The notes beneath the pieces were generated by a model. The model was not told the DNA's origin, made no database searches, and saw only the letters and a list, made by a program, of their open reading frames with translations. This document shows positions 41,846 through 62,963 of a stretch of 64,000 nucleotides of DNA, one piece after another. Position 1 is the stretch's first letter. Every line of letters begins with the position of its first letter. Source of the stretch: Mugil cephalus (Eukaryota > Chordata > Actinopteri > Mugiliformes > Mugilidae); the NCBI RefSeq assembly GCF_022458985.1, contig NC_061790.1, forward strand, positions 1 through 64,000, read 5' to 3'. The position numbers and the translations under genes are program-made.

Positions 41846-42103
41846 GATGCTGAAGACACGGACAGAAAGACACACAAACTTTACTTTTATGGCCATACAA
41901 CATCTGTGAGGTCATCCTGAAATATCTAACACATGTGTTGTCATCGTCCCGGGTTCCAAGCGAACGCTGGACCTTTCATGGTGGTGGCACCAGGGACAAA
42001 CCACGTCAACACCAATGTCCTCCTGAGACAACATCACTGATGATGACTGAGACTGAATCTGAATAGAAAAGAAGAATAGAACTGGCCTTGACCGTTAGGG
42101 GTC

Positions 42104-44393
42104 TAGACCTGTAGAATGAGGGGACGTCCCCCAGTCTAGACCTGTAGAATGAGGGGACGTCCCCCAGTCTAGACCTGTAGAATGAGGGGACGTCCCCCAG
42201 TCTAGACCTGTAGAATGAGGGGACGTCCCCCAGTCTAGACCTGTAGAATGAGGGGACGTCCCCCAGTCTAGACCTGTAGAATGAGGGGACGTCCCCCAGT
42301 CTAGACCTGTAGAATGAGGGGACGTCCCCAGTCTAGACCTGTAGAATGAGGGACGTCCCCCAGTCTAGACCTGTAGAATGAGGGACGTCCCCCAGCAGTC
42401 TAGACCTGTAGAATGAGGGACATCCCCAGTCTAGACCTATAGAATGAGGGGACGTCCCCCAGTCTACACCTATAGAATGAGGGGACGTCCCCCAGTCTAG
42501 ACCTATAGAATGAGGGGACGTCCCCCAGTCTAGACCTGTAGAATGAGGGGACGTCCCCCAGTCTAGACCTATAGAATGAGGGGACGTCCCCCAGCAGTCT
42601 AGACCTATAGAATGAGGGGACGTCCCCAGCAGTCTAGACCTGTAGAATGAGGGGACATCCCCCAGTCTAGACCTATAGAATGAGGGGACGTCCCCCAGTC
42701 TAGACCTGTAGAATGAGGGGACGTCCCCCAGTCTAGACCTGTAGAATGATGGGACGTCCTCCAGTCTAGACCTGTAGAATGATGGGACGTCCCCCAGTCT
42801 AGACCTGTAGAATGATGGGACGTCCCCCAGTCTACACCTATAGAATGAGGGGACGTCCCCCAGTCTAGACCTGTAGAATGAGGGGACGTCCCCCAGTCTA
42901 GACCTGTAGAATGATGGGACGTCCCCCAGTCTAGACCTGTAGAATGATGGGACGTCCCCCAGTCTACACCTATAGAATGAGGGGACGTCCCCCAGACTAG
43001 ACCTATAGAATGAGGGGACGTCCCCTCATTCTATAGGTCTAGTCTGGGGGACGTCCCCTCATTCTGTAGGTCTAGACCTATAGAATGAGGGGACGTCCCC
43101 CAGACTAGACCTATAGAATGATGGGACGTCCCCCAGTCTAGACCTACAGAATGAGGGGACGTCCCCCAGACTAGACCTGTAGAATGATGGGACGTCCCCC
43201 AGTCTAGACCTATAGAATGAGGGGACGTCCCCCAGACTAGACCTGTAGAATGATGGGAAGCTATAGGTCTAGACCTATAGAATGAGGGGACGTCCCCCAG
43301 TCTAGACCTATAGAATGAGGGGACGTCCCCCAGACTAGACCTGTAGAATGAGTGGACGTCCCCCAGTCTAGACCTATAGAATGAGGGGACGTCCCCCAGT
43401 CTAGACCTGTAGAATGAGGGGACGTCCCCCAGCAGTCTAGACCTATAGAATGAGGGGACGTCCCCCAGCAGTCTAGACCTGTAGAATGAGGGGACATCCC
43501 CCAGTCTAGACCTATAGAATGAGGGGACGTCCCCCAGTCTAGACCTATAGAATGAGGGGACGTCCCCCAGTCTAGACCTATAGAATGAGGGGACGTCCCC
43601 CAGTCTACACCTATAGAATGAGGGGACGTCCCCCAGTCTAGACCTATAGAATGAGGGGATGTCCTCCAGTCTAGACCTGTAGAATGATGGGACGTCCCCC
43701 AGTCTAGACCTGTAGAATGATGGGACGTCCCCCAGTCTACACCTATAGAATGAGGGGACGTCCCCCAGTCTAGACCTGTAGAATGAGGGGACTTCCCCCA
43801 GTCTAGACCTGTAGAATGATGGGACGTCCCCCAGTCTACACCTATAGAATGAGGGGACGTCCCCAGACTAGACCTGTAGAATGATGGGAAGCTATAGGTC
43901 TAGACCTATAGAATGAGGGGACGTCCCCCAGTCTAGACCTACAGAATGATGGGACGTCCCCCAGCAGTCTAGACCTATAGAATGATGGGACGTCCCCCAG
44001 ACTAGACCTATAGAATGATGGGACGTCCCCCAGTCTAGACCTATAGAATGAGGGGACGTCCCCCAGACTAGACCTGTAGAATGATGGGAAGCTATAGGTC
44101 TAGACCTATAGAATGAGGGGACGTCCCCCAGTCTAGACCTACAGAATGATGGGACGTCCCCCAGCAGTCTAGACCCATAGAATGATGGGACGTCCCCCAG
44201 ACTAGACCTATAGAATGATGGGACGTCCCCCAGACTAGACCTATAGAATGATGGGACGTCCCCCAGACTAGACCTATAGAATGATGGGACGTCCCCCAGT
44301 CTAGACCTATAGAATGAGGGGACGTCCCCCAGACTAGACCTGTAGAATGATGGGAAGCTATAGGTCTAGACTGGGGGACGTCCCATCATTCTA
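42104..44393. repeat. 34-36-bp palindromic minisatellite upstream of ASB2
   Basis: About 65 units consist of CAGTCTAGACCTGTAGAATG plus AGGGGACGTCCCC. Each carries the 12-base palindrome GGGGACGTCCCC, and many carry ATGGGACGTCCC instead. At 43010-43085 the orientation flips, making a long hairpin. A block ending GATGGGAAGCTATAGGTC and then TAGACCTATAG recurs at about 43250, 43885, 44085 and 44350, so there is a higher-order repeat of about 200 bases in the right half. The array begins 260 bases upstream of the ASB2 ATG. Confidence 0.95.
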
Positions 44394-47266: not shown

Positions 47267-48055
47267 ATGTTCCCAGGCAGGATGGCCCTGAGCCCGGCCA
47301 GCCTGCTCTGTGCCCCCCCGGAGGAGCTCCAGGAACTCGCCTTCATCGAGAGGCCGATCCGCAGGAGCCTGAAGGTAGGAGCTGTTCACACATGGAGGAG
47401 GAGGAGGAGGAGGAGGAGGAGGAGGAGGAGGAGGAGGAGATGTGTTGAGCACATGTGTGGGACATGTGATGATGATGAAGATGGTGGTGATGATGGTGAT
47501 GATGGTGGTGATGGTGGTGATGATGATGGTGATAGTGGGGTGAGTCAGTGGGAGGAAGATCAGCCTCTCTGCAGGAAGCTGAGGGGAGACCCACCATCTG
47601 CGCAGCATGACGCAGATTGTCCTCCTATCTGTCTGCCCAGAGGAGGACAGACAGGAGGACAAATGTCTTCCTCATGAGCTGAGAGACTCGTGATCATCAG
47701 TCACCTCAAGAGAAAACTAATACATGATCAATAAACTGCCAGGAGTCTTCGAAAGGATCAACGTTACACATTATTCATCTGTTTTTCTTTGTCAGCGTGT
47801 TCAGTTCAGTTTCACTTAATGTCTTTTCAGCTGAATTAGTGTCAATAACAACACACATTGTCCAAAAAAATGAATCAGAGCAGGACTAAGACAACTGGAA
47901 GAAACCTGGTGCAGAACCAGAACCAGAACCAGAACCAACTCATATGGAGACCAAGTAGAGACAGAAGAGAGAAGGACAGCCAGAGGAGGAACGAAATAAA
48001 TGAGATAAATGAGAGAGAATATGTCATTATTTAATGTTTTCTTAGTCCTCTGCTA

Positions 48056-48090
<35 letters not shown>

Positions 48091-51000
48091 CAAGCAGAAG
48101 AAGAATAGCAACAACACTAGGGCGGCACAGCGGCCCCATGGTCAGCACTGATGCCTCCCAGTGAGAAGTGGGTTCGGGTTCGGGTTCGCTGAGATAAGCT
48201 CCAGCAAACCCAACAATCCTACTGAGGATTAATTGGTATGGAAGATGAGATAAGATGATAACAACAACAGTAATATTTAAAGAACTTTGAATCCCTCTTC
48301 TTAGCCTGATGTCCTCAACAAGTGTGTTCCACAAAATCACCCCAACAAACGGAGATAGAGCAAACATACAACAATGTTTAAAGTTTGCGTTCCCTCTGAG
48401 ATTATAACCCTCCTCAATAACCGCCCAATAACTGATCTATGATCTTTAACTGATCTTAAACTAACCAATAACCGATCCATGATTGATCAATAACTGATCT
48501 ATGACCGATAACTGATCTATAACTGATCTATAACTGATCTATGATCAATAACTGATCTATAACTGATCAATAACTGATCTATAACTGATATATGATCTAT
48601 AGCTGATATGTGACCAATAACTGATCAATAACTGATCAATAACTGATCTATAACTGATCTATGATCGATAACTGATCAATAACTGATCTATAACTGATCA
48701 ATAACTGATCTATAACTGATATATGATCGATAACTGATATGTGACCAATAACTGATCCATGATTGATCAATAACTGATAACTGATCTATAACTGATCTAT
48801 AACTGATCAATAACTGATATATGATCAATAACTGATATATGATCGATAACTGATCTATGATCAATAACTGATCTATGACTGATCTGTAACTGATCAATAT
48901 TCAATGAATGCTCAATAATGAAACTGAAACAGACTGATTCCCCTGTACTTGTGATGATGATGATGAAGATGATGAAGATGAAGGTGATGATTTCATCCAG
49001 GTAAATAATCAGTGTTTCCTGTCAGACTCCAGAGGAGATCGATCAGCTGACTGTGGATGAAGACCTGAATGACATTGAGAGGGCGGTTTACCTGCTCAGG
49101 TGAGATCAGACCCTATTTAATCCAGGTGAGATTCTGAGTCTGCAAGAACCTCTTCTAGTCTTCTAGAGGCCAACCAGTAGCTCTTCCTAGCCTCCCAGCT
49201 AACAGTAGCTCTACCTAGCCTCCCAGCTAACAGTAGCTCTTTCTAGCCTCCCAGCTAACAGTAGCTCTTTCTAGCCTCCCAGCTAACAGTAGCTCTTCCT
49301 AGCCTCCCAGCTAACAGTAGCTCTTCCTAGCCTCCCAGCTAACAGTAGCTCTACCTAGCCTCCCAGCTAACAGTAGCTCTTTCTAGCCTCCCAGCTAACA
49401 GTAGCTCTTCCTAGCCTCCCAGCTAACAGTAGCTCTACCTAGCCTCCCAGCTAACAGTAGCTCTTTCTAGCCTCCCAGCTAACAGTAGCTCTTCCTAGCC
49501 TCCTAGCCTCCCAGCTAACAGTAGCTCTTCCTAGCCTCCTAGCCTCCCAGCTAACAGTAGCTCTTCCTAGCCTCCCAGCTAACAGTAGCTCTTTCGAGCC
49601 TCCCAGCTAACAGTAGCTCTTCCTAGCCTCCCAGCTAACAGTAGCTCTACCTAGCCTCCCAGCTAACAGTAGCTCTTTCTAGCCTCCCAGCTAACAGTAG
49701 CTCTTCCTAGCCTCCTAGCCTCCCAGCTAACAGTAGCTCTTCCTAGCCTCCTAGCCTCCCAGCTAACAGTAGCTCTTCCTAGCCTCCCAGCTAACAGTAG
49801 CTCTTTCGAGCCTCCCAGCTAACAGTAGCTCTTCCTAGCCTCCCAGCTAACAGTAGCTCTTCCTAGCCTCCTAGCCTCCCAGCTAACAGTAGCTCTTTCT
49901 AGCCTCCCAGCTAACAGTAGCTATTTCAAGCCTCCCAGCTAACAGTAACTCTTCCTAGCCTCCTAGCCTCCCAGCTAACAGTAGCTCTTTTGAGCCTCCT
50001 AGCCTCCCAGCTAACAGTAGCTCTTTCGAGCCTCCCAGCTAGGAGTGGTTCTTTCCAGAGCCGTATATTAGAGAGAGTCTGTCCAACTCAAATCATGGGC
50101 GCCATGTTTGCTACATCAGAGGTTAGATTCTGCAGTGTAACCCTGCTGTAAAATGCTTTGTAGCCCAATCACCTCATCAGTCATGGAGCTGTGTTTACCT
50201 CTGTGTCCATCCATCACCATTAATAGATTCAAATTATTCAGAAAAATTAGAAATACTCAGAAATAGTGAAAATTAAACTAGTCATTAGCACGCTAGCCAT
50301 AATAACTTAGTAGTAGCTGAGGTAAAGTTATGTGTCAATTAAATGTGTCTATATGGACATAAATTACATGAAAACATGGGTTTCACAGTATATGTGATGC
50401 TAGCTGCTGTTTTTCTAAGCCTTTAGTCTAGATAGCTAGCTAGCTTCCTTCTGAGATCAAGGTTCACATTAATGATGGTGTGACTTTATATTTTTTCTTA
50501 TATATTATATATTTTATATATATTTTTTTTTATTTTATTTTTCTATATAAAATCTTAATAAACGTCAAAGAAAGACATTGACATTTACCTCATCACATAA
50601 TAGAGAGAAACCAGCTGACGTCCAGTTCTTCCTTTTAATCTTCTGCTCCATAACTTTCTGTGTTTTTGTTCACTGGGGAAACGGTGGAGTTTCCTCCGTG
50701 TTTTCCTGATCCTGTGCTGGAGCCGTAGGCTGAGCACTGTGGCATATTTTACCTTTTAATACAACTTTATCTCTGTTATTGCCACTTGTTTCTCTGGTTC
50801 TACCCGGCTGGTCTGCAGCAGATGGTTCCTCCATATGAGCTGGTTCTGCTTAAGGTTTCTTCCTGTTAAAAGGGAGTTTTTCCTTCATGCTGCTCTGGAG
50901 GTTTCAGGTCAGTTTTTGTAAACAGTCTTGAGATAATTTGTATTGTTATTGGTTCTATATGAATAAAATTGAATTGAACTGAACTTCTGTGTGGGTGAAT

Positions 51001-54000
51001 ATTGGTTAGGTGTATGGCGCCCATGAAACACATGACCAGCTCAGAACAACTCAGCATAGAGGGATAGCTCAGACGCTCCATTCCCTAGTTGGACAGACTC
51101 TCTAACATATGGCTCTGGTTCTTCCTAGCTTCCTGGCCTCCCAGGTAACAGTAGCTCTTTGTAGTTTCTAGCGTTCAGTCCATCTCTGCGACCCAGTAAA
51201 TTCTACGCTAATTAAACTCTGTAGCTAATCAGCATGCTGGTCCCGGAGGATCTAAACTAGTTCACTGAACTTATTCACAATTACCCAGACAAATGACTGT
51301 GGATCTAAACCCAGAAAGTCTCTGGAGGATTCACTTTCAAGTACTCTGTTCTTACTTCAGAACTCTTGTCCCCTCTGTCTCCATCTGTCTCTTCCACGTC
51401 TCTGTCCCTGCTGTCCTTTCTTGTCCTCATGTCTTTCTCCAGTGTGGGTCAGGAGGTCCAGAGAGCCAGCGTCATCAGTAACCTGCCCAGCCTGGTACGC
51501 CAGAATCCAGCAGAGACGTTCCGACGTGTCGTTCCAAAAGTTCGGGTATGTTGGATGAGACTGCAGTCGCTCCAGGAAGAATCTGATTTGTTTCTCCTGT
51601 AACTTGTCTCTCTGTGTGACCCAGGAGGTTCTGAATGGAGCTGGAGCTGAAATCCAGTTGGCAGCAGCAACGTCGTTTTTAACCATTCTGCAAGATGACA
51701 TCATTCTTATCCACACCCACACCTACTCCATCCTGAAGACCATCCTGCTGCACCTGAACCACAGAGACACAGGTAAACTCACCTGAACCACAGAGACACA
51801 GGTAAACTCACCTGAACTATAGAGACACAGGTAAACTCACCTGAACCACGGAGACACAGGTAAACTCACCTGAACCACAGAGACACAGGTAAACTCACCT
51901 GAACTATAGAGACACAGGTAAACTCACCTGAACCACGGAGACACAGGTAAACTCACCTGAACCACAGAGACACAGGTAAACTCACCTGAACTATAGAGAC
52001 ACAGGTAAACTCACCTGAACCACAGAGACACAGGTAAACTCACCTGAACCACAGAGACACAGGTAAACTCACCTGAACCAAAGAGACACAGGTAAACTCA
52101 CCTGAACCACAGAGACACAGGTAAACTCACCTGAACCATAGAGACACAGGTAAACTCACCTGAACCACAGAGACACAGGTAAACTCACCTGAACCATAGA
52201 GATCGTCACTTGAACTGAGGTGATGCTGAGGTTGCCATGTTTGTTGCTGATGTTGTCCATGTGTATTTCCGTGTTGACAGTGGTGAGCAACGCCTGGTTG
52301 GAGACTCTGCTTTCAGCCATCAATGCGCTGCCAAAGGAGACAATTAGACAGGAGGTCAGTTGTTACGTTACAGGATGTTGGATCCAACTCTTTATTATTG
52401 ATGATCAGTCAGGAAGTTAAATGTGAAGAACATGATCAATGATCTTTAAATGACTCATACATTTCATGTTTGTCTATTCTGTCTCTTCTGCTACTTGTCT
52501 CTGTCCATAGGTCCTGAATCCTCTCCTGTATCAGTCCCAGATGTCTCATTCTCTTCAGACTCGTTTGGCTAGCTGTCGCATCTTAGGAAAAGTTGCCTGC
52601 AAGTTTGATTCTCACATGTGTGTAGCATTGTGTACTCTGTACTTCAGTATTACATTAACACAATCTGTACACTGTAGTTCTGTAGAAACAAATGAACACA
52701 ATGACATTTGAGACATGAAGCTCTCAGCAGAACTTGCCGTTGATGCTTTTAAGGCGTTATCTCACTTTCTCTGACGCTGTGTTTCATCAGAGTGAAGAAG
52801 GAGCTGCTGCCGTTGGTTCGATCTTTATGTCAGGACCTGGAGTTTGAGGTTCGAGTCTGTATGTGCCGTCAACTGGAGAACGTTGCTAGAGCCACGGGGT
52901 ACCTGCCACCAAACACGGATTAGAACCCAACACCAAGTACCAAGCACACCCAACCACGACCACACAAACACCACCCAAACTCAAACTAAACACCACCCAA
53001 ACACTGACCAGACACAGCAAAGGTAAAACCTCTCTCTAACCAAACGATGACGGGTAACTATGATGAGACAAGGAGTATTGTTTGTCCATCAGGGTGGAAG
53101 ACATGAGGACAGAGCTTCTCCCTGAACTGGTGGAACTCGCCGGAGATGAGGAGAGCAGCGTCCGTCTCGCTGCTTTTGACACCATGATCAACCTGATGGA
53201 GATAATGGACAGTGGTGAGTCTTTGGATTAGTCTCAGACTGAGACAGACTTTAATGATCCACGGGGGAAATTACTTGGTTGTAGTAGCTTAGTTGCACCT
53301 AAAAACCTAGTTTAAAGCTCTGTCTTCCTCCTCAGACGAGCGACTCCACGTCGTGGTTCCTCTGGTGATGTCCGTGTGCGATGCCTCGTCGCAGGTAGAC
53401 GAAGCCATCATGGCGGCCTTGTCGTTCCAGTTCGGGAAGCTGTGCAGCGGCCTGGCAGGTATAATTCACATTCAGACTAGGAGTTGCACCAACCAGTCGA
53501 CTTTACTGCTGTATCATTACTCTTGAAACATCATGATGTGGGCTAGTCTCTGATTATTTGACAGTAACAACAGTAAGTGAGTTGAAATAAGTGAAAGGTG
53601 AAAGGTAGGAGGTGAAAGAAATGATGTCCAGAGTGTTATGTGTCACATACAGATGAGGAGTTAAACAGGCGCATGGACTGAGGCAGGACAGATTTCCTGT
53701 CGCGTTCTTTGTCTCTTGGAGAAGGAGCTCCGTTGTCTGTCTATCGTCTGGTGGAGAGGGAGGTCAGGATGATCCATGACTGGTATCAGTCTGTTAAGTG
53801 TCCTCCTCTCCCAGCCAATCACAGACCAGCCTTCCTGATCAGGTGATTCAGTATGTAGCTGTTCCTCCAGCAGAACACAGCAGAGAAAAGGGTTCTGGCC
53901 ACAACAGACTGGTAGAAGATCTCCAGCGTCTTACTGCACATGTTGAAGGATCTCAGCTTCCTCTCTGAGGTCTTCTAGGACACAGCTGTACTGTTGGTCC

Positions 54001-57000
54001 TCCAGTTCAGTCTGTTACTGATGCTCACTCCCAGGTATTTGTCCTCCTCCACCACCTCCACGTCCCTGCCCAGGATGCTGAGGGGCTGAGGATCTGTTCA
54101 TCAGTCACCATCTCGTTGGTCTTGTCTACGTTAAGCAGCAGGTGATTCCTTCCAGCCCACCCCAAAAATCTGTCCACAGTCCTTTATACTCCTCCCTCCT
54201 CCCTCCTCCCTCCTCCCTCCTCCTCCTTCTCCTCCTCCCTCCTCCCCACAACCTCAGAGTCATCAGGAAATGTCTGGATGTGACATGAGTCTGAGTTGTG
54301 CTGAAAGTCAGTGGTGTATGAGGTGAACAAGAACGGTCCCCTGTGGGGCCCCCACACCACTCACCACCACATCAGACAGGACATGACCCCCCCCCCAACA
54401 CCAACACCCATTGGTGTTCAGCTTCCCACCCAGCACCAAAGGCTGGATGGTGTTAGAGGCACTGGAGAAATCAAAAAAAGTGATTCTTACTGAGCCTCCA
54501 CCACCATCCAGGTGTGAGAGGTGTGAGTGAGCTGCAGCAGATAGATGACAAAATCATCCACCCCCAGACTCGGCTGGTAGGCAAACTGTAGGGGGTCTAT
54601 AAACAATCTCACCTGTGGCCTTAGGCGGGCCAGGACCAACCTCTCCAGCACCTTCATCACATGGGATGTAAAGGCCACTGGACAGAAATCACTGAGGCCG
54701 GAGGGAGACGACTTCCTGGGAACGGGAACAAGGCAGGATGTCTCCCAGAGAGGCGGTCCCTCTCCAGGCTCAGGTTCAGGTTGAAGAGACGTTGGAGAGC
54801 AGCAGACATCTGTCCTGCACAGGTCCTCAGTGTCCTAGGACTGATGCCATCAGGTCCTGCAGCCTTGCGTTGGTTCAGTCTCTCCAGCTGTCTGACATGT
54901 CAGTCCTGGAATACAACTAAAGTACTACTGACGCTATCGCTGCTCTGGACATCAGCCAGTTAACAACTTCACCAAGGGAGAGGAGGAGGCTGCACATCAA
55001 CTATTTGATAAAGTTAGAGCTTCAGCTTCAGAGAGTGACTTTGTTGCTGTGGTTATACAGCAGGTTCTGTTATTATTAGTGTCAGACTAATGGTGTTTAT
55101 GGTGACCTGGTCTACAGTCCACAGTAGTCTATGTTCAAGCTTCAATAAACTCTTAGTGGGAAGTCTCCTGAAGTCTATGTAGGGACGACATGGAGCTTTT
55201 ATGGCCTCGCTGCCTGCAGGACCAGACACAGGGCACAAATGGGGGGCACATGTAAACCTGTTATAACTCATCTTAGGAATGTGAATGGTTGCTATCTGGC
55301 AGGGAAGTAGCAGTACTGTGTCAACAAAGTCAGGGCCTTGCCCTCATCCACAGTAGGTCTAGAACCATACTTGATTTTTTGTTATGGATGCTCGGAGGGT
55401 CAACTCCCTTATTCAGTTTCACTGCTTGTGCCGAGTCCCATTATTTGGTCTTAGCGGGCTTCTCAGGGACCAGGTTATTTTGTTACTGGACTTCTATGTC
55501 AGGTGGATTTCAGATTTTCTGTTACTGTGCTTCAGGTTCCGTGTCAGATGAGCAGAAAGGTCGCTTACTGCAAAGGTTCAAGGTGCTTTGTGTTGCTGGA
55601 CTCCAGACTGAAGGAAATCAGACTGACGGCAACACAGAATCTACGCTGATCCGCTGCAACTGCTGCTACAACCTCCCGGTAGAAACCACAAACACAAAGA
55701 GTCTCTGTGTTACCCACCTCTGCAGTTGGTGAGGTCACTTCCTGTTCTCTCCATCCAGGCCATGGTAGTGTTTGCAGACCCTGCACACTTTCTGTCGGAG
55801 CTCTATTCTTCTTTCTCCAGTCTTTGTTGTGACCCAGAGGTCAGCGTCCGGCGAAGTGCTGCAGCCAGTTTCCACCAGGTTAGATCACCGCAACACGAAG
55901 GTCCTGCTACATTGACATTTGTTCACTCTGATTGGCTAAGTCCTCTAATGTCATTCAGTGGCCCTGCCTCTTCCTGTAGGTAGTGAAACTGCTCGGTTCA
56001 AATGTCCAGCTGGTCCACAAAGAGCTTCTGTCTCTGCTGCAGGATGATGCTCTGGAGGTGAGAGGTGCAAAGTGGACCAAACTGTCTTCATGTTCTGATG
56101 TATTTCTGTATGTTGTATATTTATTAGTGCAGCTTCATTACTGAGTGAATAAGGAGCACGGATGATCCAGAGTTACAGCAGATCAGGGTCTAGATACATC
56201 ACACATTTAGTGAACAGTCCGATTATTGAATGTTGGAGAAACGTTCAGGTCTAAACATCTGAAGCACTTTGCCAAGGACCAGGTGGTCCAGCAGGTGAGG
56301 ACCTTCTAACAGGACAGATACAAGGTGTTGATGCCTTAACAGTTCTGATACTGACCTTAAAGGACATATAACATTTGCTGCTGATGTTGAAGGAGCAGCA
56401 TTATGTTGGTCAGGAGATTTTTTTCTGGATCATTGGTGTATCACAAATATAGCAAATCACTTAATTCCAGCTGTTGTGCGGTTTGTTAGCTTAGTTTTTA
56501 TTGTTGCTGTTGAGGTTTTGGACGCACTGATGAATCACTTTGAAGAAATTCTTGAGACAGTCCTGTCCAGGGGAGAAAACCTGACACTGGACAACAAGGT
56601 GGGAAATTAAACATAATTTTTCTACTTCCTATGGTTTTCTTTGTGTGGTATCTGGTATTCAGACATCTTTCTCCTCTGTTCTCCTTTGGTTTTCCTCAGT
56701 TCCCAGAGTTGCTGTCGACGTTGCTACTTGCAGAACAGAAGGTCGGATGTTCTCTGCGTTGGCGGCTCCATGAGAAGCTGTTGCAGCGTTACAGCTGCCT
56801 GGCCAGACTGCTGCCGGGAGAACTCCTGCACCAGAGCTTCTCCCCTCGCATCTTCATCATCCTCACCACCAACGTCAGCACCACCAGACGAGCAGAGACA
56901 TACACAATCCCACAGGTGTGAACCAGGTGATAGACCGGTAACTCTGCTTGTTGTGGTTGCAGAAAGTGTTGCCGGTGCAGAAGGAAGCAGCTCGGACTTT

Positions 57001-60000
57001 CTGCACATTCCTGCGGTACAACCGCAAACAAGAGCAGCGTCAGGAGATGATGGAACGACTGATCCAAGGTCAGGACTTCTTTGCCTCTGATATTTCATCG
57101 GCAGAGCATCAAGTGAAACTGTTAATTATTCTTAGTAATGTTTGTGAGGTTGGTTTTCAGTGAGACAACACGAGACCACATCAGTATATCAAACAGACCA
57201 ATGTTCCTCAGATCTTGCTCAGGGTCGCAGCTATTGGAACCGCCTGAGGTTCCTTGACGTTTGTGAAACTGCCACCGAGATTTTCTCCAGAAAATACTTC
57301 AACAAACACTTCCTGATACCAGCACTGGAACTGGTCCATGACCCCGTGGCCAATGTCAGGTAGTTCCTTGTCATTCTGTCCAGTGCAACAAAAATAATCT
57401 GTCTGAAACCAAAGCACCTGTCGATCTGTTCAACTGTTCACAGTCGCTCACATTTCTGTCTCTTAGGTACAAATTGTGCCAGTTGTTGCCCAGGTTACGT
57501 TCATCACTTCGTCTGCCGGCCGACAAACATCTTCTGCAGAAACTTGACTTCTGTGTCCAGAAGCTTCTCTGCAGGGAGAAGGACAAAGACGTGGTGGCTA
57601 CAATTCGCAAGGTAAGACTTATAAGAGACTAGTCCAAATTGTGACTTTACCATTTAACCCCTTTTCCCTGTTCGGGCATTTTTGTACATTTTATTCAACT
57701 TTTTTTTTCATTGTGTTATAATTTTGGCTGTGTTACAGCTTGTGGCTTGAATTTCTGCAGGAACTCTTCTCTTTATCCAAATATTTGAAACCCAGTGTCT
57801 TTTACTCTCACATATCATTTATACTTTCGTTATGCATTTTGACCCCTCTGGACACCTGTGTGGCAAAAATGTACATGTCCAAAAAACAGCCATAAAATCC
57901 TGGCTTGCTAAAAATCAGTTTCTCTAAAATGCACATATGTACATGACATATAGCCCTTGTTTCCAGGTCATATGTTCTGTTGTGTTCTCTTTTGTTGCTG
58001 TATTGCATGTTGTTGCAGCTTGCAATTAAATTCAATTCAATTCAATTTTATTTATATAGCGCCAATAACAATAAAAATTGTTTCAAGACACATCACAAAA
58101 ACCAGCCTGAAACCTCCAGAGCAGCCTGAGGGAAAAACTCCCTTTAACAGGAAGAAACCTGGAGCAGAACCAGCTCATATTGAGGAACCCTCTGCTGAAG
58201 ACCAGCCGGGTAGAACCAGAGAAGATAGAGAGAAGAAGAGCAGGAGAAACAAGATAAACTAACTTCTGTCATAGATACAAACATCAAGCTGAAGGAAACA
58301 TGTAGGATCTAGTAATATAACACATAGCTGATGATCTGTGACAGTTTGTGAGTATAACAGGAATCATGGGCAGGTTGGTGAATAGTTCATCTAGGTAGGA
58401 GTGGACACCTGGAGGAGGACATGAAGACTGGGACAGATGTAATTTATGGAGCTCCACAGGTCTGATACACAGACTCCAGACCATGAAGACTGGGCTGGTT
58501 GATGAGGCCACGGCAGCAGATGTAGCTTAGAACTCCACAGGTCAGATATTCAGCCTCCAGACCAGAGACCCTCACAAGAAGATGGAGGGGAGAGAGGGAG
58601 ACACAGTGGTTAGTAAATTATAAGAGATAGAAAATAAAATGATAAGATATTAGAGGACAAAGAGGAGAGGACATGTCCTCAGTGCATCGTCCCCCTGCAG
58701 CCTCGGCCTATAGCAGCATCACTAAGGGATGGTTAAGTCCAGCTCTAACTATAAGCTTTGTCTAAAAGGAAAGTCTTAGTCCTGACCTTAAACGTAGAGA
58801 CTGTGTCTGCCTCCAGAACCCAAACTGGGAGCTGGTTCCACAGGAGAGGAGCCTGATAGCTGAAGGTTCTACCTCCCATTCTACTTTTAGAACCTCTAGG
58901 AACCACAAGCAGACCTGCACTTAGAGATGGTAGTGATCTGTTGGGACAGTCTGGTTCTATGAGGACTTCATATATGATGGAGCTCGGCCTTTCAGGGCCT
59001 TGTAGGTAAGGAGGAGGATTTTAAATTCAATTCTAGATTTTAAAGGGAGCCAATGAAGAGAAGCTAATACTGGAGTAATATGATCTCTCTTGCTAATTCC
59101 TGTCAGTGCTCTTCAAACTGGAATCTGTCTGAAGATATGATTCAAACCAGTCTAGTGCAGTTCCTGTAATTCTGATCACACTTTCAAGTCTCTGTAGTAG
59201 AATACTGTGATCTATAGTGTCAAATGCAGCACTGAGATCTAGCAGGACAAGTATAGAGACAAGTCCATCGTCTGAAGCCATGAGGAGATCATTGGTAACT
59301 TTAACCAGAGCTGTTTCCGTGCTATGATGAGCTCTAAAACCTGACTGAAACTCTTCAAACAAACCAATACTGTTTAGATGATCAACCAACTGATTGACAA
59401 CAACTCTTTCCAAAACTTTAGAGATAAAAGGAAGGTTGGAAATTGGCCTATAGTTGCTAAAACATCTGGGTCAAGAGTGGGTTTTTTAAGTAATGGTTTA
59501 ATTACAGCAGTTTTAAAAGACTGGGGCACATATCCTGTTAATAAAGAGAAGTTAATCTGATTTAATATGGAGGTATTAATTAATGGATAAACCTCCTTGA
59601 GCAACTTAGTTGGGATGAGGTCTAGAAGACAAGTTGATGGTTTAGATGCTGTAATAACTGAAGTGAGCTCAGGAAGATCAATTAGGGAGAAAGAATCCAA
59701 ATATTGACTCGGTCCTACAGAAGTTTCTAATGACACTGTACTTACATCTTTGACAGATGGAAGGGTGCTATGAATTTTATCTCTAATGCCAACAATTTTA
59801 TCAGTGAAGAAGCTCATGAAGTCATTACTGCTGAGGGCTGAAGGAATAGATGCTCAACAGAGCTGTGACTCTTTGTCAGCCTGGCTACAGCTGAAAAGAA
59901 ATCTGGGGTTGTTCTTGTTTTCTTCTATTAATGAAGAATAATGTGCTGTTCTAATCTTACGGAGAGTTTTTTTATAAGTTGTTAAACTATCTTTCCAGGC

Positions 60001-62963
60001 TATGTGAGCTTCTTCAGAACTAGTGGAATGACAAATTCTTTCCAGCTTTGAACTACACAACTGTGAATTATACCATGGAGCTGCCCTCCTTCCATTTACC
60101 ACCTTCTTTTTTAGAGGAGCAACTAGATTTAGAGTTGTACTAAGCGATGCTGTCGTGCTGTCAACAAAATAATCTATTTGTGATGGAGTTAGATTGTGGT
60201 TGCTGACATCCACATCACTAACATAAGGCACTGAGGTAAATACTGAAGGTATTAATTCCTTATATCTAGTCACAGCATCATCAGATAAGTGTCTACCATA
60301 ACGAAATGTCTTTACAATTCCTGTGTAATTACTTATAGTAAATTCAAATGTTAAAGAGAATGATGGGACAATAGAGGGTTGTGAGAATATACGGTTAGAC
60401 CTTCAGTTTCTAGGCCATAAGTTAGTACAAGATCTAAGGTGTGATTGAAACAGTGAGTTGAACCATTTACATTCTGAGAAAAGCCAATTGAGTCTAATAA
60501 TGACATAAATGAAGAGCTAAGACTGTCACTGCCAACATCAACATGGATGTTAAAGTCACCTACTATAATGACTTTATCTGTTCTAAGCACTAAATCACAT
60601 AGAAACTCAGAGAATTCAGCTAAAAACTCAGAGTAAGGAGCAGGTGGGCGACACACCACAACAAAGAGAACTGGTTTTTGTGTTTTCCAGTCTGGATGAG
60701 CAAGACTAAGAGTGAGGCTTTCAAATGAATTAAAGCTTTGCTTAGGTCTAAGATTAATACATAAATCAGAGTGGAAGATTGCTGCGACTCCTCCTCGGCC
60801 TGAGCCTCCAGGAATGTGATAGTTACTATGACTGGGTGGCCTGGACTCATTTAAACTGACATACTCATCATCCTGCAGCCACGTTTCAGTCAAACTATAT
60901 AGATCAATCTGTTGTACTAGTGAATTTGGATAAGGTTCCTATGAATAACTCCTCTATTGTTATTTTTCCATTTAAAAAATCTGGGAGCAGACAGCACATC
61001 TATGGTTAAATGTTAAATGTTAAAATCACAGAGTCATGGTTTTATACTGGAATAGCAGCCAGATTAATAAATGCAGTTATAATGGAAGTTAATGGAGCAT
61101 TTTTGGCCATGAAGGAGTCCAGAGGGAGATTCTGACTCTACATAAAAAATACTAATGCAATCAAATCAATTTTATTGATAATCTTTGCCACATCCAAGAC
61201 TCTAATTACCAACAGACCCATCCAACTACTGTTTATTTTATGAAAAATCATTCATTTTTTGTGTTTTTTGTAAGAAATAATGACATTCTTTGAATCATTA
61301 GACCAGCATTTAAAGAGTTATAATCCTGAAAACTCTTGAAAGTAGTTTTGAGCAGGTCCTTAGTCGTTTAAGTGATTTATTAAATTAGAAAAAAATATTG
61401 ATGTATGTGGATATTATGGCAGTTTCTTTATGTGTGAACATTTTTGCCACAAAGGTGTCCTGCGGGTAGTAAATTTGAGGAGGACATAAGGGTTAAAACC
61501 GTGAATTAGTTTAGCCTGCCAACTGTAACGGATCATCAGCAATGAACTGTGTTCATCATGTCTTCCAGACAGTCCTGGAACTGGACAAACTGGACCTCTC
61601 TGAGCCTGTAAGTGAAGACACAGCTGTGAATTCATCAGGTTCACTTCTGGCCTGTAACCTCCTTGTTTCTTCTGTTTCGAGAAGTTTCACAAGAGGCAGG
61701 AGAAGGACCTGTTGGATCAGAAGAAGGAAAAAGAAGAAACCCTACTCCTAGAGATGGTGAGGCTGAGCTTGACAGCATCTCTTCAGTCTCAACCTGCCTG
61801 CTTTGTTTTAATGGCATCTTTATGTTGTCAGGAACAGCTGGAGCGCCAGCAGAGCGACGCAAAACTGAACTCTGACAAACACGAAAGGAAACGTGAGCTG
61901 ATGCTTGATTTTTGAAATGTTCCAATTCATCGTTCAGTCACTAAACTATTGTTCTTTGATAGGAAGGGACAGTAAAACCAGTCTGTCTGCAACCAAGTCC
62001 ATGTCTGTGTCTTCATCTGCAGCAACCTCCTCCTCAACTGGTGAGAATGATGAAGGTGTTGGTGATGATGATGATGATGGTGATGATGATGAGTATGATG
62101 ATGATGGTGATGATGGTGATGATGGTGATGATGATGAGTATGATGATGATGGTGATGGTCATGACTCCTCTGTGCAGGTAAAGAAATGAGGAAGGCTAAA
62201 CTCTCTCGGAGTCGGTCCCTGAGCAGCCAGCCGACATCGTCCAAACCATTGAACTCAGACAGACCTCTGTAAGAACAACCACCTCCTTCTCTCTCAGAGA
62301 TCAGGTCTGGAAACCATCTGTGATTCAGTCGATAGGGAGGAAGTAGAGTTCCTCTAAACTCTGACCTGATTTAATTTGTCTGGAATATGTGAGTGCAGGT
62401 CAGCATTGATGTCAACACAGCAAAGACAAACAGGTCTGGGACCGACCTGAACACAACTGGATAAAACCTGGGGCAGGTTCAGGCTCAGTCCAGGGTGGAG
62501 GTCTGGAGACTAAACTGAGGTTCAATGAATGCTTTTGTGTTTCAGGAAGGTTAAAGATCTGAGCTGTTCATCTGGACCTGGGAAGTCGTCCATGTTCTCC
62601 GGCAAAGGTACCCCCTCCCCAAACATCAGGGACTAACCCTAACATCAAGTCTTTATTCTCATATTACTTCCTGTGCGTCACAGATGAGTCCCTGAGGACA
62701 GCACACTTCACCATGGCGACCCAGTCCTCCTCCCCCTCCTCCCCCATGCCAGTCCTGATCCGCAGCAACACCACAAGCCTCCTAGACAGAGCCAGTACCC
62801 ATGACCAGAGAGACCACAGAACCAGTGCACTAGACCACAGAACTAATAGCATGGACCACAGGAACAATAAGATGGATCACAGGACCAGTACCTTGGACCT
62901 GCGCAGTAAAACAATGGACCGGGGGTGCGGAGTGAAGGACAACCAGTCCAGGAAGCTGTCTAT
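47267..62963 (+). CDS. ppp4r4: PPP4R4, protein phosphatase 4 regulatory subunit 4 (3' end outside window)
   Basis: A HEAT-repeat regulatory subunit of PP4. Twenty-four coding exons stay in frame for 883 codons: 47267-47374, 49026-49099, 51443-51545, 51625-51772, 52281-52354, 52511-52617, 52791-52898, 53093-53214, 53336-53458, 55536-55678, 55759-55878, 55980-56057, 56515-56598, 56700-56873, 56963-57068, 57212-57359, 57467-57611, 61569-61607, 61682-61756, 61832-61892, 61963-62040, 62178-62268, 62546-62607, 62684-62963. Family landmarks: [63 protein letters not shown] and HDPVANVR. A Lys/Glu coiled coil ([18 protein letters not shown]) and a Ser-rich basic tail follow. Human has 873 residues, so at most one short exon is missing. 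The last exon found ends in phase 2 at a GTGAGT donor. Exon 24 contains tandem DHRT motifs not remembered in human. Confidence 0.95.
47394..47540. repeat. (GGA)n and (GAT/GGT)n repeats in PPP4R4 intron 1
   Basis: About 15 GGA triplets start 20 bases behind the exon 1 donor, followed after 20 bases by a GATGATGGTGGT-type array. Confidence 0.95.
47880..47960 (-). repeat. LINE2 3' tail fragment
   Basis: GGAAGAAACCTGGTGCAGAA followed by four CAGAAC repeats and CTCATATGGAGACC matches the reversed LINE2 tail seen at 58150-58190. Confidence 0.45.
48056..48088. repeat. (AAT)n microsatellite
   Basis: Eleven AAT units are visible directly. Confidence 0.95.
48425..48910. repeat. Minisatellite of AACTGATCTAT-type 10-12-bp units in PPP4R4 intron 1
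   Basis: About 40 units alternate AACTGATCTAT, AACTGATCAAT and ATGATCGAT. Nearly every unit contains GATC, and many contain the palindrome TGATCA. Confidence 0.93.
49160..50045 (+). repeat. 28-bp minisatellite in PPP4R4 intron 2
   Basis: About 31 units of AGCCTCCCAGCTAACAGT plus AGCTCTTCCT, with TTTCT, TACCT and TTTCG variants and occasional extra TAGCCTCC. In the sense of PPP4R4 each unit carries CTAAC, a branch-point-like word, then CTCTTCCTAG, a pyrimidine tract with AG. Confidence 0.95.
50770..50985 (+). mobile_element. LINE2 3' tail, plus strand
   Basis: The text TAAAAGGGAGTTTTTCCTTC, CTGCTCTGGAGGTTTCAGG and TTGTATTGTTATTGG ends in ATAAAATTGAATTGAACTG, the usual fish LINE2 end. It is severely 5' truncated. 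Confidence 0.6.
51773..52203 (+). repeat. 29-bp minisatellite repeating the PPP4R4 exon 4 donor site
   Basis: The unit GTAAACTCACCTGAACCACA plus GAGACACAG is the last 19 exon bases with the first 10 intron bases. With the authentic donor there are 15 occurrences of AG/GTAAAC. Units vary at three bases (CCACAG, CTATAG, CCACGG) in a partly regular three-unit order. Reading through the first unit reaches TGA after four codons. Confidence 0.97.
53650..54920 (-). mobile_element. Degenerate Rex1/CR1-L2-like LINE, minus strand, in PPP4R4 intron 9
   Basis: The minus frame at 54487-54678 encodes [20 protein letters not shown] and [15 protein letters not shown], the fingers of a non-LTR reverse transcriptase. 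The remaining region to 53650 reads as its antisense 3' part (CTCCCAGGTATTTGTCCTCC is the reverse of the YLGV block). It is broken by stops and a (CCT)n expansion at about 54185-54245. Confidence 0.65.
58024..61010 (-). mobile_element. LINE2 (Maui-like) retrotransposon, minus strand, in PPP4R4 intron 17
   Basis: From the right: an endonuclease (60893-60351; [38 protein letters not shown]), then a linker ORF (60273-59854). Next come the reverse transcriptase start (59817-59374; [20 protein letters not shown]) and its fingers (59413-59093; [36 protein letters not shown]). The catalytic Y/FxDD block and all later reverse transcriptase sequence are absent, and the frames are shifted against each other. 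The 3' noncoding part runs to the tail at 58024 (AATTCAATTCAATTTTATTT). It is dead, with a large internal deletion. Confidence 0.85.
62050..62162. repeat. (GAT/GGT)n repeat filling PPP4R4 intron 21
   Basis: The 137-base intron 62041-62177 is almost entirely GATGATGGTGAT-type triplets with a repeated GAGTATGATGATGATGGTGA block. Confidence 0.95.

Follow-up and report, generated by a model that had tools for sequence, protein, structure and literature searches.

In the human CBS gene, according to PMC2630376, a 31-bp VNTR, c.1444_1467+7(16_21), is composed of units with 24 exonic and 7 intronic nucleotides and is polymorphic at 16–21 copies, and a table of PMC1395315 places it at 'exon 13-intron 13'. 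The first report of this VNTR (Lievers 2001) states in its title that CBS activity is reduced and post-load homocysteine raised. Human genes located in segmental duplications contain variable internal tandem repeats with a mean unit size of 30 bp, in part placed at exon–intron boundaries, by which splicing is altered (PMC2812944). As presented in PMC4974935, tandem duplication of AGGT-containing exonic segments is a widely cited intron-gain model, and the case reported there is a tandem duplication over an intron–exon boundary. Competition between identical donors for one acceptor has been followed in engineered two-donor minigenes (PMC9225289).

The array described here lies at the junction of exon 4 and intron 4 of PPP4R4 in the grey mullet, Mugil cephalus, within a window of 64,000 nt (the whole stretch of DNA that was analysed). 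It resembles the CBS VNTR in that the unit spans the junction, with 22 exonic and 7 intronic nucleotides as compared to 24 and 7 in CBS; the number of copies is 15.6 versus 16–21, the units are of fixed length, near-identical and distinguished by single-base variants, a complete donor is found in all 15 full units, and the first copy serves as the functional exon end, the latter at the level of the annotated protein (P0001). The gene, the sequence and the lineage are different, and polymorphic copy number is known for human CBS. Since the anatomy is the same, the mullet array is not a new kind of thing, and the novelty implied by the original prediction was overstated in light of what the CBS sources describe. 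The repeats of PMC2812944 have minisatellite units of similar size (~30 bp), but, as described there, they average four copies, belong to recent paralogues and may form new introns, whereas PPP4R4 has no new intron in the annotated model. In the PMC4974935 case the copied part was the acceptor side, and a new intron resulted, while in PPP4R4 it is the donor side that is copied; the minigenes of PMC9225289 share identical donors and a single acceptor with the mullet locus, yet contain two engineered donors rather than fifteen natural ones. A thin literature search, in which the gene name was rarely queried, retrieved no paper on the PPP4R4 array. What appears to be new is that the same PPP4R4 junction is apparently duplicated in other percomorphs, as suggested by the protein sequences P0132, P0121 and P0133 and, more weakly, by P0014; the original prediction had not noticed this.

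Translation of the spliced exons 1–17 (47267–57611) yields 655 residues that form an exact prefix of NCBI protein P0001, the predicted PPP4R4 isoform X2 of M. cephalus (895 aa). The naming of the gene as PPP4R4 holds, as does that of the exon as exon 4 when coding exons are counted. HEAT repeats are the Pfam domains found in P0001, and a PDB search gave 20 matches, PP2A scaffold relatives; the NCBIfam scan of P0001 matched no family in that library, which serves prokaryotes. In P0001, the residues ...HLNHRDT are joined straight to VVSN, which requires a donor after 51772 and an acceptor before 52281, although the gene model behind P0001 may owe as much to homology as to reads. The features of the locus are as follows.

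47267–47374, + strand: PPP4R4 coding exon 1.
49026–49099, + strand: PPP4R4 coding exon 2.
51443–51545, + strand: PPP4R4 exon 3, followed by the 79-nt intron 3.
51625–51772, + strand: PPP4R4 exon 4, 148 nt, ending in ...LLHLNHRDT, with residues identical to P0001.
51751–52202, + strand: minisatellite in which 15 full units of 29 bp, CACCTGAACCACAGAGACACAG/GTAAACT, are followed by 17 nt of a further one, by Tandem Repeats Finder, direct reading and pattern search.
From 51751, + strand: first repeat copy, the exonic part of which is the last 22 nt of exon 4, so that the array starts inside the exon.
51770–51778, + strand: donor 1, annotated, CAG/GTAAAC, intron start 51773, required by P0001.
51780–52185, + strand: copies 2–15, each with an identical donor, introns from 51802 to 52179 in 29-base steps, by direct reading and pattern search.
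51784–51786, + strand: in-frame TGA reached via donors 2 to 15, reading ACA G/GT AAA CTC ACC TGA.
52186–52202, + strand: copy 16, partial (CACCTGAACCATAGAGA), with no donor, by direct reading.
52203–52280, + strand: non-repeated 3' portion of intron 4, containing the annotated acceptor, potentially common to all 15 donors.
52281–52354, + strand: PPP4R4 exon 5 (VVSNAWLETLL...), matching P0001.

On the single haplotype analysed, Tandem Repeats Finder delimited the array at 51751–52202 (452 bp in total; period 29, 15.6 copies, 95% matches, no indels), and direct reading showed that the repeat unit is made of 22 exonic and 7 intronic nucleotides of the exon 4/intron 4 junction. The junction itself has thus been amplified, as had been claimed, in 15 full copies that span the exon end and the intron start. 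The array was rightly recognised, but its start had been set at 51773 (extent 51773–52203) and in fact lies at 51751, within exon 4. On its + strand, the window contains 15 occurrences of the motif CACAG/GTAAACT, with in-register introns starting at 51773, 51802 and so on up to 52179. A 21-nt cross-donor pattern searched on both strands with up to three mismatches gave 15 matches, all of them with none, and no match to the same pattern was obtained in 100 dinucleotide shuffles, which bears out the fifteen identical donors. All 15 full units hold the complete donor and the 17-nt partial unit has none.

Differences between the copies are confined to unit columns 10, 12 and 13, all exonic. The order of the unit variants (aabcabcabaadaeae) carries a period-3 signal, with 7 of 13 matches, a value reached by 1.7% of shuffles; this order suggests block duplication and hence past change of copy number. 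The block order of the variants also argues against a false expansion or collapse during assembly, and the 452 bp of the array are short relative to long reads. The published mullet assembly, possibly the source of the window, drew on PacBio subreads >30 kb (PMC9247318). The array length given here is that of the assembled sequence, and an assembly artefact is considered very improbable. As a separate observation, a putative relic copy past the array (CACTTGAAC at 52207) was rejected, being matched as well by 951 of 5000 random 78-mers drawn outside the neighbourhood of the array.

The exonic part of the unit appears to be older than the array. Exon 4 continues directly into exon 5 in 118 of 120 fish PPP4R4 proteins (the best 120 of 653 matches; 117 counted by script and P0119 by inspection, the exceptions being P0014 and P0120). 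Such continuity indicates that the exonic 22-mer is ancestral coding sequence, not a captured satellite, and therefore that the array arose from the junction; the identification of the seed with the conserved exon end is supported by these sequence comparisons. Of the 16 introns read in PPP4R4, 11 are shorter than 250 nt and six measure 79–107 nt. Intron 4 is 508 nt long, and subtraction of the 423 nt of extra copies leaves 85 nt, similar to the shorter introns of the gene. It is thus envisaged that a 29-bp seed, with 22 nt from the end of exon 4 and 7 nt from the start of intron 4, would have undergone duplication and, in the lineage of the grey mullet, expansion up to 15.6 copies, turning an intron of roughly 85 nt into one of 508 nt.

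The window is rich in minisatellites. In total, 24 merged arrays of period at least 10 cover 14.7% of positions 1–64000, and ten arrays of at least 250 bp add up to 8511 bp. A 33-bp array of about 68 copies occupies 42101–44355; a 28-bp array of about 27 copies (CAGTAGCTCTTCCTAGCCTCCCAGCTAA) lies at 49175–50055, some 75 bases past PPP4R4 exon 2, and a stretch near 51121–51160 in the same intron resembles it by eye. Further downstream, a 137-nt PPP4R4 intron (GTGAGAATGATGAAGG..., 62041–62177) consists mostly of an ATG/GTG-rich tandem array (62047–62157) that starts a few bases past the donor, and a 21-bp tandem repeat within a PPP4R4 coding exon (62812–62899) specifies repeats of the DHRT/DHRN type close to the C-terminus, and these vary in number among the fish proteins compared.

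Such surroundings, together with the use of donor 1 in the annotated product, speak for the view that donors 2–15 are never measurably used and that a neutral intronic minisatellite merely chanced to begin at the junction. A crude uniform estimate gives 0.17–0.40 array seeds expected on a PPP4R4 junction in the window, so that a strike on a junction is unremarkable before selection. What is unusual is the growth of the array to 15 copies with the gene intact. The insert of the clownfish isoform X1 described below fits the use of a second-copy donor, which runs counter to inert copies. No donor copy is degraded either, but this is not evidence of constraint: selection on the donor copies was rejected, there being a 31% chance that the three variable columns all miss the donor. 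Inert decoys are quite possible, though they are not the reading that we prefer.

The preferred reading is that the array arose as a junction-spanning minisatellite and that donor 1 remains dominant. The claim that all donors are equally strong is upheld for the local sequence, CACAG/GTAAACT being identical in each. Among 16 PPP4R4 donors (the donors of exon 2 and of the last exons excluded), the annotated one takes 5th place on a donor matrix and 6th place when U1 duplex energy is used, hence the array donor is of middling strength. The consensus units of the nine other arrays of at least 250 bp reach a best donor score of 1.03 on either strand, as compared to 4.01 here. On the minus strand, the unit junction reads CAG/GTGAGT, the full U1 donor consensus, at 51777–51785 and every 29 bases to 52183–52191 (15 copies by pattern search), with a matrix score of 8.03 versus 4.01 for the sense donor.

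Use of donor k gives an exon of 148 + 29(k−1) nt and an intron of 508 − 29(k−1) nt, from 148/508 to 554/102. The prediction that later donors run into TGA at once proved right: an in-frame TGA is present at 51784–51786, 15 nt upstream of the end of the donor-2 exon. Premature stops with many exons downstream are expected to make transcripts targets of NMD, and since many exons follow exon 4, this should apply to the transcripts of donors 2–15.

The repetition of AG/GT in every unit raises the question of recursive or new-intron splicing within the array, in which each CACAG/GTAAAC would act both as acceptor and as donor, as in the AGGT model of intron gain. However, the stretch of 15 nt from −18 to −4 upstream of the unit AG is only 33% pyrimidine, versus at least 60% (mean 75%) in 15 real acceptors, and P0001, taken as the annotated model, has no intron bounded by a duplicated AG and GT. 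A length of 29 nt, that of one unit, is moreover too short for a vertebrate intron. This possibility is hardly credible.

Folding was also considered as a means of donor choice. In hairpin gating, CAGGU would pair with the next ACCUG. The predicted fold of the array had a z of −3.14 relative to dinucleotide shuffles, none of 100 being as low, but 28 of 300 sets of tiled shuffled units were. All of the array donors examined (1, 2, 3, 9 and 15) are predicted to be closed at −3 to +1, with donor 1 more open at +2 (0.51 vs 0.05–0.08), and pairing is likewise predicted in parts of the nine PPP4R4 donors examined outside the array. In view of the tiled-unit control and the pairing at other donors, the hairpin is not used to explain donor choice.

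As the 22 nt upstream of each donor are alike save for single-base variants, the choice would have to depend either on distance or on more distal exon sequence upstream. According to PMC9225289, an upstream donor is favoured among near-equal ones when the downstream intron exceeds 250 nt, the more so with a short upstream intron, and exon-definition minigenes with two identical CAG/guaagu donors used the upstream one exclusively; with short downstream introns, the downstream donor is favoured. When donors are not matched for strength, the downstream one is preferred, according to the same source, in about 60% of human events and in each of the four intron classes. Exon 4, flanked by introns of 79 nt and 508 nt, corresponds to the upstream-donor case of PMC9225289, yet donor 15 lies 102 nt from the acceptor.

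This last distance falls in the range of intron definition, which gives downstream donors the advantage, and it counts against dominance of donor 1, as does, for the preferred reading as a whole, the fact that 11 of the 16 PPP4R4 introns read are below 250 nt. Taken to its end, intron definition would win: the donors at the far end of the array, which lie some 100 nt from the acceptor, would be preferred, premature stops would prevail and mullet PPP4R4 would be largely silenced. The 102-nt intron of donor 15 falls within the range of short PPP4R4 introns, and the downstream preference with short introns in PMC9225289 points the same way. On the other hand, the resulting exon would be 554 nt long, while shorter exons are favoured according to PMC9225289, and the coding frame is intact over exons 1–17, so that the gene does not look abandoned. 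Silencing by intron definition is considered improbable.

A different possibility is a putative copy-number rheostat, in which later donors would take a sizeable share that increases with copy number, the transcripts would be lost to NMD, and array length would tune PPP4R4 output between individuals. The donors share the 22 nt upstream except for the three variable columns, and donors 1–14 each precede another unit; consequently, local context barely separates them, and every later donor brings a premature stop. Lievers and colleagues reportedly discuss splicing from later CBS donor copies. The title of that first report (Lievers 2001) associates the 31-bp CBS VNTR with a reduction in CBS activity and an increase in post-load homocysteine, in keeping with a rheostat. 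The exclusive use of the upstream donor in minigenes with two donors of identical strength under exon definition (PMC9225289) is at odds with it, and a rheostat is regarded as unlikely.

In the explanation that we prefer, most transcripts would use donor 1, paired with the intron 3 acceptor across the 148-nt exon, presumably because the array has lifted intron 4 past the 250-nt limit of intron definition, while in a minority of transcripts later donors would be used, the TGA met and the RNA degraded by NMD. The original prediction had set first-site choice by exon definition against the production of premature-stop transcripts proportional to copy number, which frames the question well; the annotated protein needs donor 1 and favours the former. 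Dominance of donor 1 with some loss to later donors is most likely, as judged from donor geometry and the annotated product. Taken jointly, a junction-spanning minisatellite origin and donor 1 dominance are considered probable; least certain is the minority use of later donors, to which the inert decoys are a rival, so that the likelihoods assigned to the readings overlap and do not sum to one.

The same junction was then compared among fishes. Protein searches with the 148-residue read-through form (79 matches) and with exon 4 plus its flanks (16 matches) both found fish proteins that run from exon 4 into the intron. The comparison set comprised 22 tails including that of the mullet, 21 being from other entries, back-translated from the proteins and set against the exon end. 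The rows are not independent, as several are related, protein ends were treated as stops (an assumption for contig-limited proteins), and P0014 is an annotated spliced protein rather than a read-through form. Left out before counting were P0135 (tail as in P0131), P0176 (like P0174), P0123 (ending in HRDTG), P0122 and P0120 (annotated, leaving exon 4 otherwise), and P0124 and P0125 (continuing into exon 5). P0120, from Leuresthes tenuis, is an irregular gene model at the same junction, which has 13 odd residues after HRDT (APVCLTCTCLSLQ) and no exon 5 sequence.

Six short tails end after three codons (P0126, P0168, P0131, P0203, P0200 and P0202), and all six are fully compatible with CACCTGA at 7 nt past the donor, as in the mullet; among window tails of the same length, 13 of 456 are compatible. 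In the longer tails, a second copy of the exon end was fitted at +7 in P0132 (21 of 22 nt), at +8 in P0121 from Anarrhichthys ocellatus (HRDTGNMYMNHRHTGNIQ; 19 of 22 nt) and at +7 in P0133 (18 of 22 nt), and P0014 from Amphiprion ocellaris gave a fit at +8 (16 of 21 nt). In 11 of the 15 longer tails there was no clear second copy, the nearest being P0171 and P0127 with 15 of 22 nt. Among 4938 control tails from the window scored at +7/+8, none exceeded 17, 34 reached 16 and 111 reached 15 of 22 nt. With the best of offsets 4–12 taken, which is how the fish offsets were chosen, five control tails reached at least 18, one of them 19 and none 20, and 103 reached at least 16; this lowers the weight of P0133 and P0014 and not that of P0132 and P0121. 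By these controls, P0132 and P0121 are strong, P0133 is fair, and P0014 is weak on the tail test alone.

P0014, the clownfish isoform X1, contains ten in-frame residues, GNPHLYYQDA, exactly between HRDT and VISN. The insert is weakly indicative of a second donor, 30 nt further downstream, being used in frame, and since the clownfish protein is annotated with such an insert, donor 1 would not always act alone. A motif scan of the 79 read-through matches recognised 17 and left 62 with no motif, some owing to the form LHHRD; in the sequences inspected from these matches, no protein ending in GKLT, as an annotated mullet-type truncated isoform would, was seen, which is weak either way.

Mugil and Amphiprion belong to Ovalentaria and Anarrhichthys to Eupercaria, all of them percomorphs. 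Several other fishes seem to have a second copy with nearly the same spacing, so that the mullet array probably grew out of a duplication that is older or recurrent, and the protein tails suggest that duplication of the PPP4R4 exon 4/intron 4 junction in percomorphs is either old or recurrent. The fuller scenario is one of an ancient or recurrent site, at which a donor copy at +29–30 nt would have been kept since early percomorphs, serving in frame in the clownfish, as a poison site where followed by TGA, and grown to 15 copies in the mullet; this is put forward tentatively and with considerable doubt. Early percomorphs lived tens of millions of years ago.

The PPP4R4 locus suggests that CBS-type arrays are not peculiar to humans. 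In one natural gene, the possible exons (148–554 nt) and introns (508–102 nt) pass, in steps of 29 nt, the 250-nt limit that separates exon definition from intron definition, and fifteen identical donors facing one acceptor offer a potential dose curve beyond the reach of two-donor minigenes. If related fishes carry the duplication with different numbers of copies, they would form a comparative series. Should the site indeed be ancient or recurrent, a single junction would, depending on the lineage, provide an alternative end to the exon, act as a poison switch or operate as a copy-number rheostat, and percomorphs would provide a natural series from which the rules of choice between identical donors may be derived.
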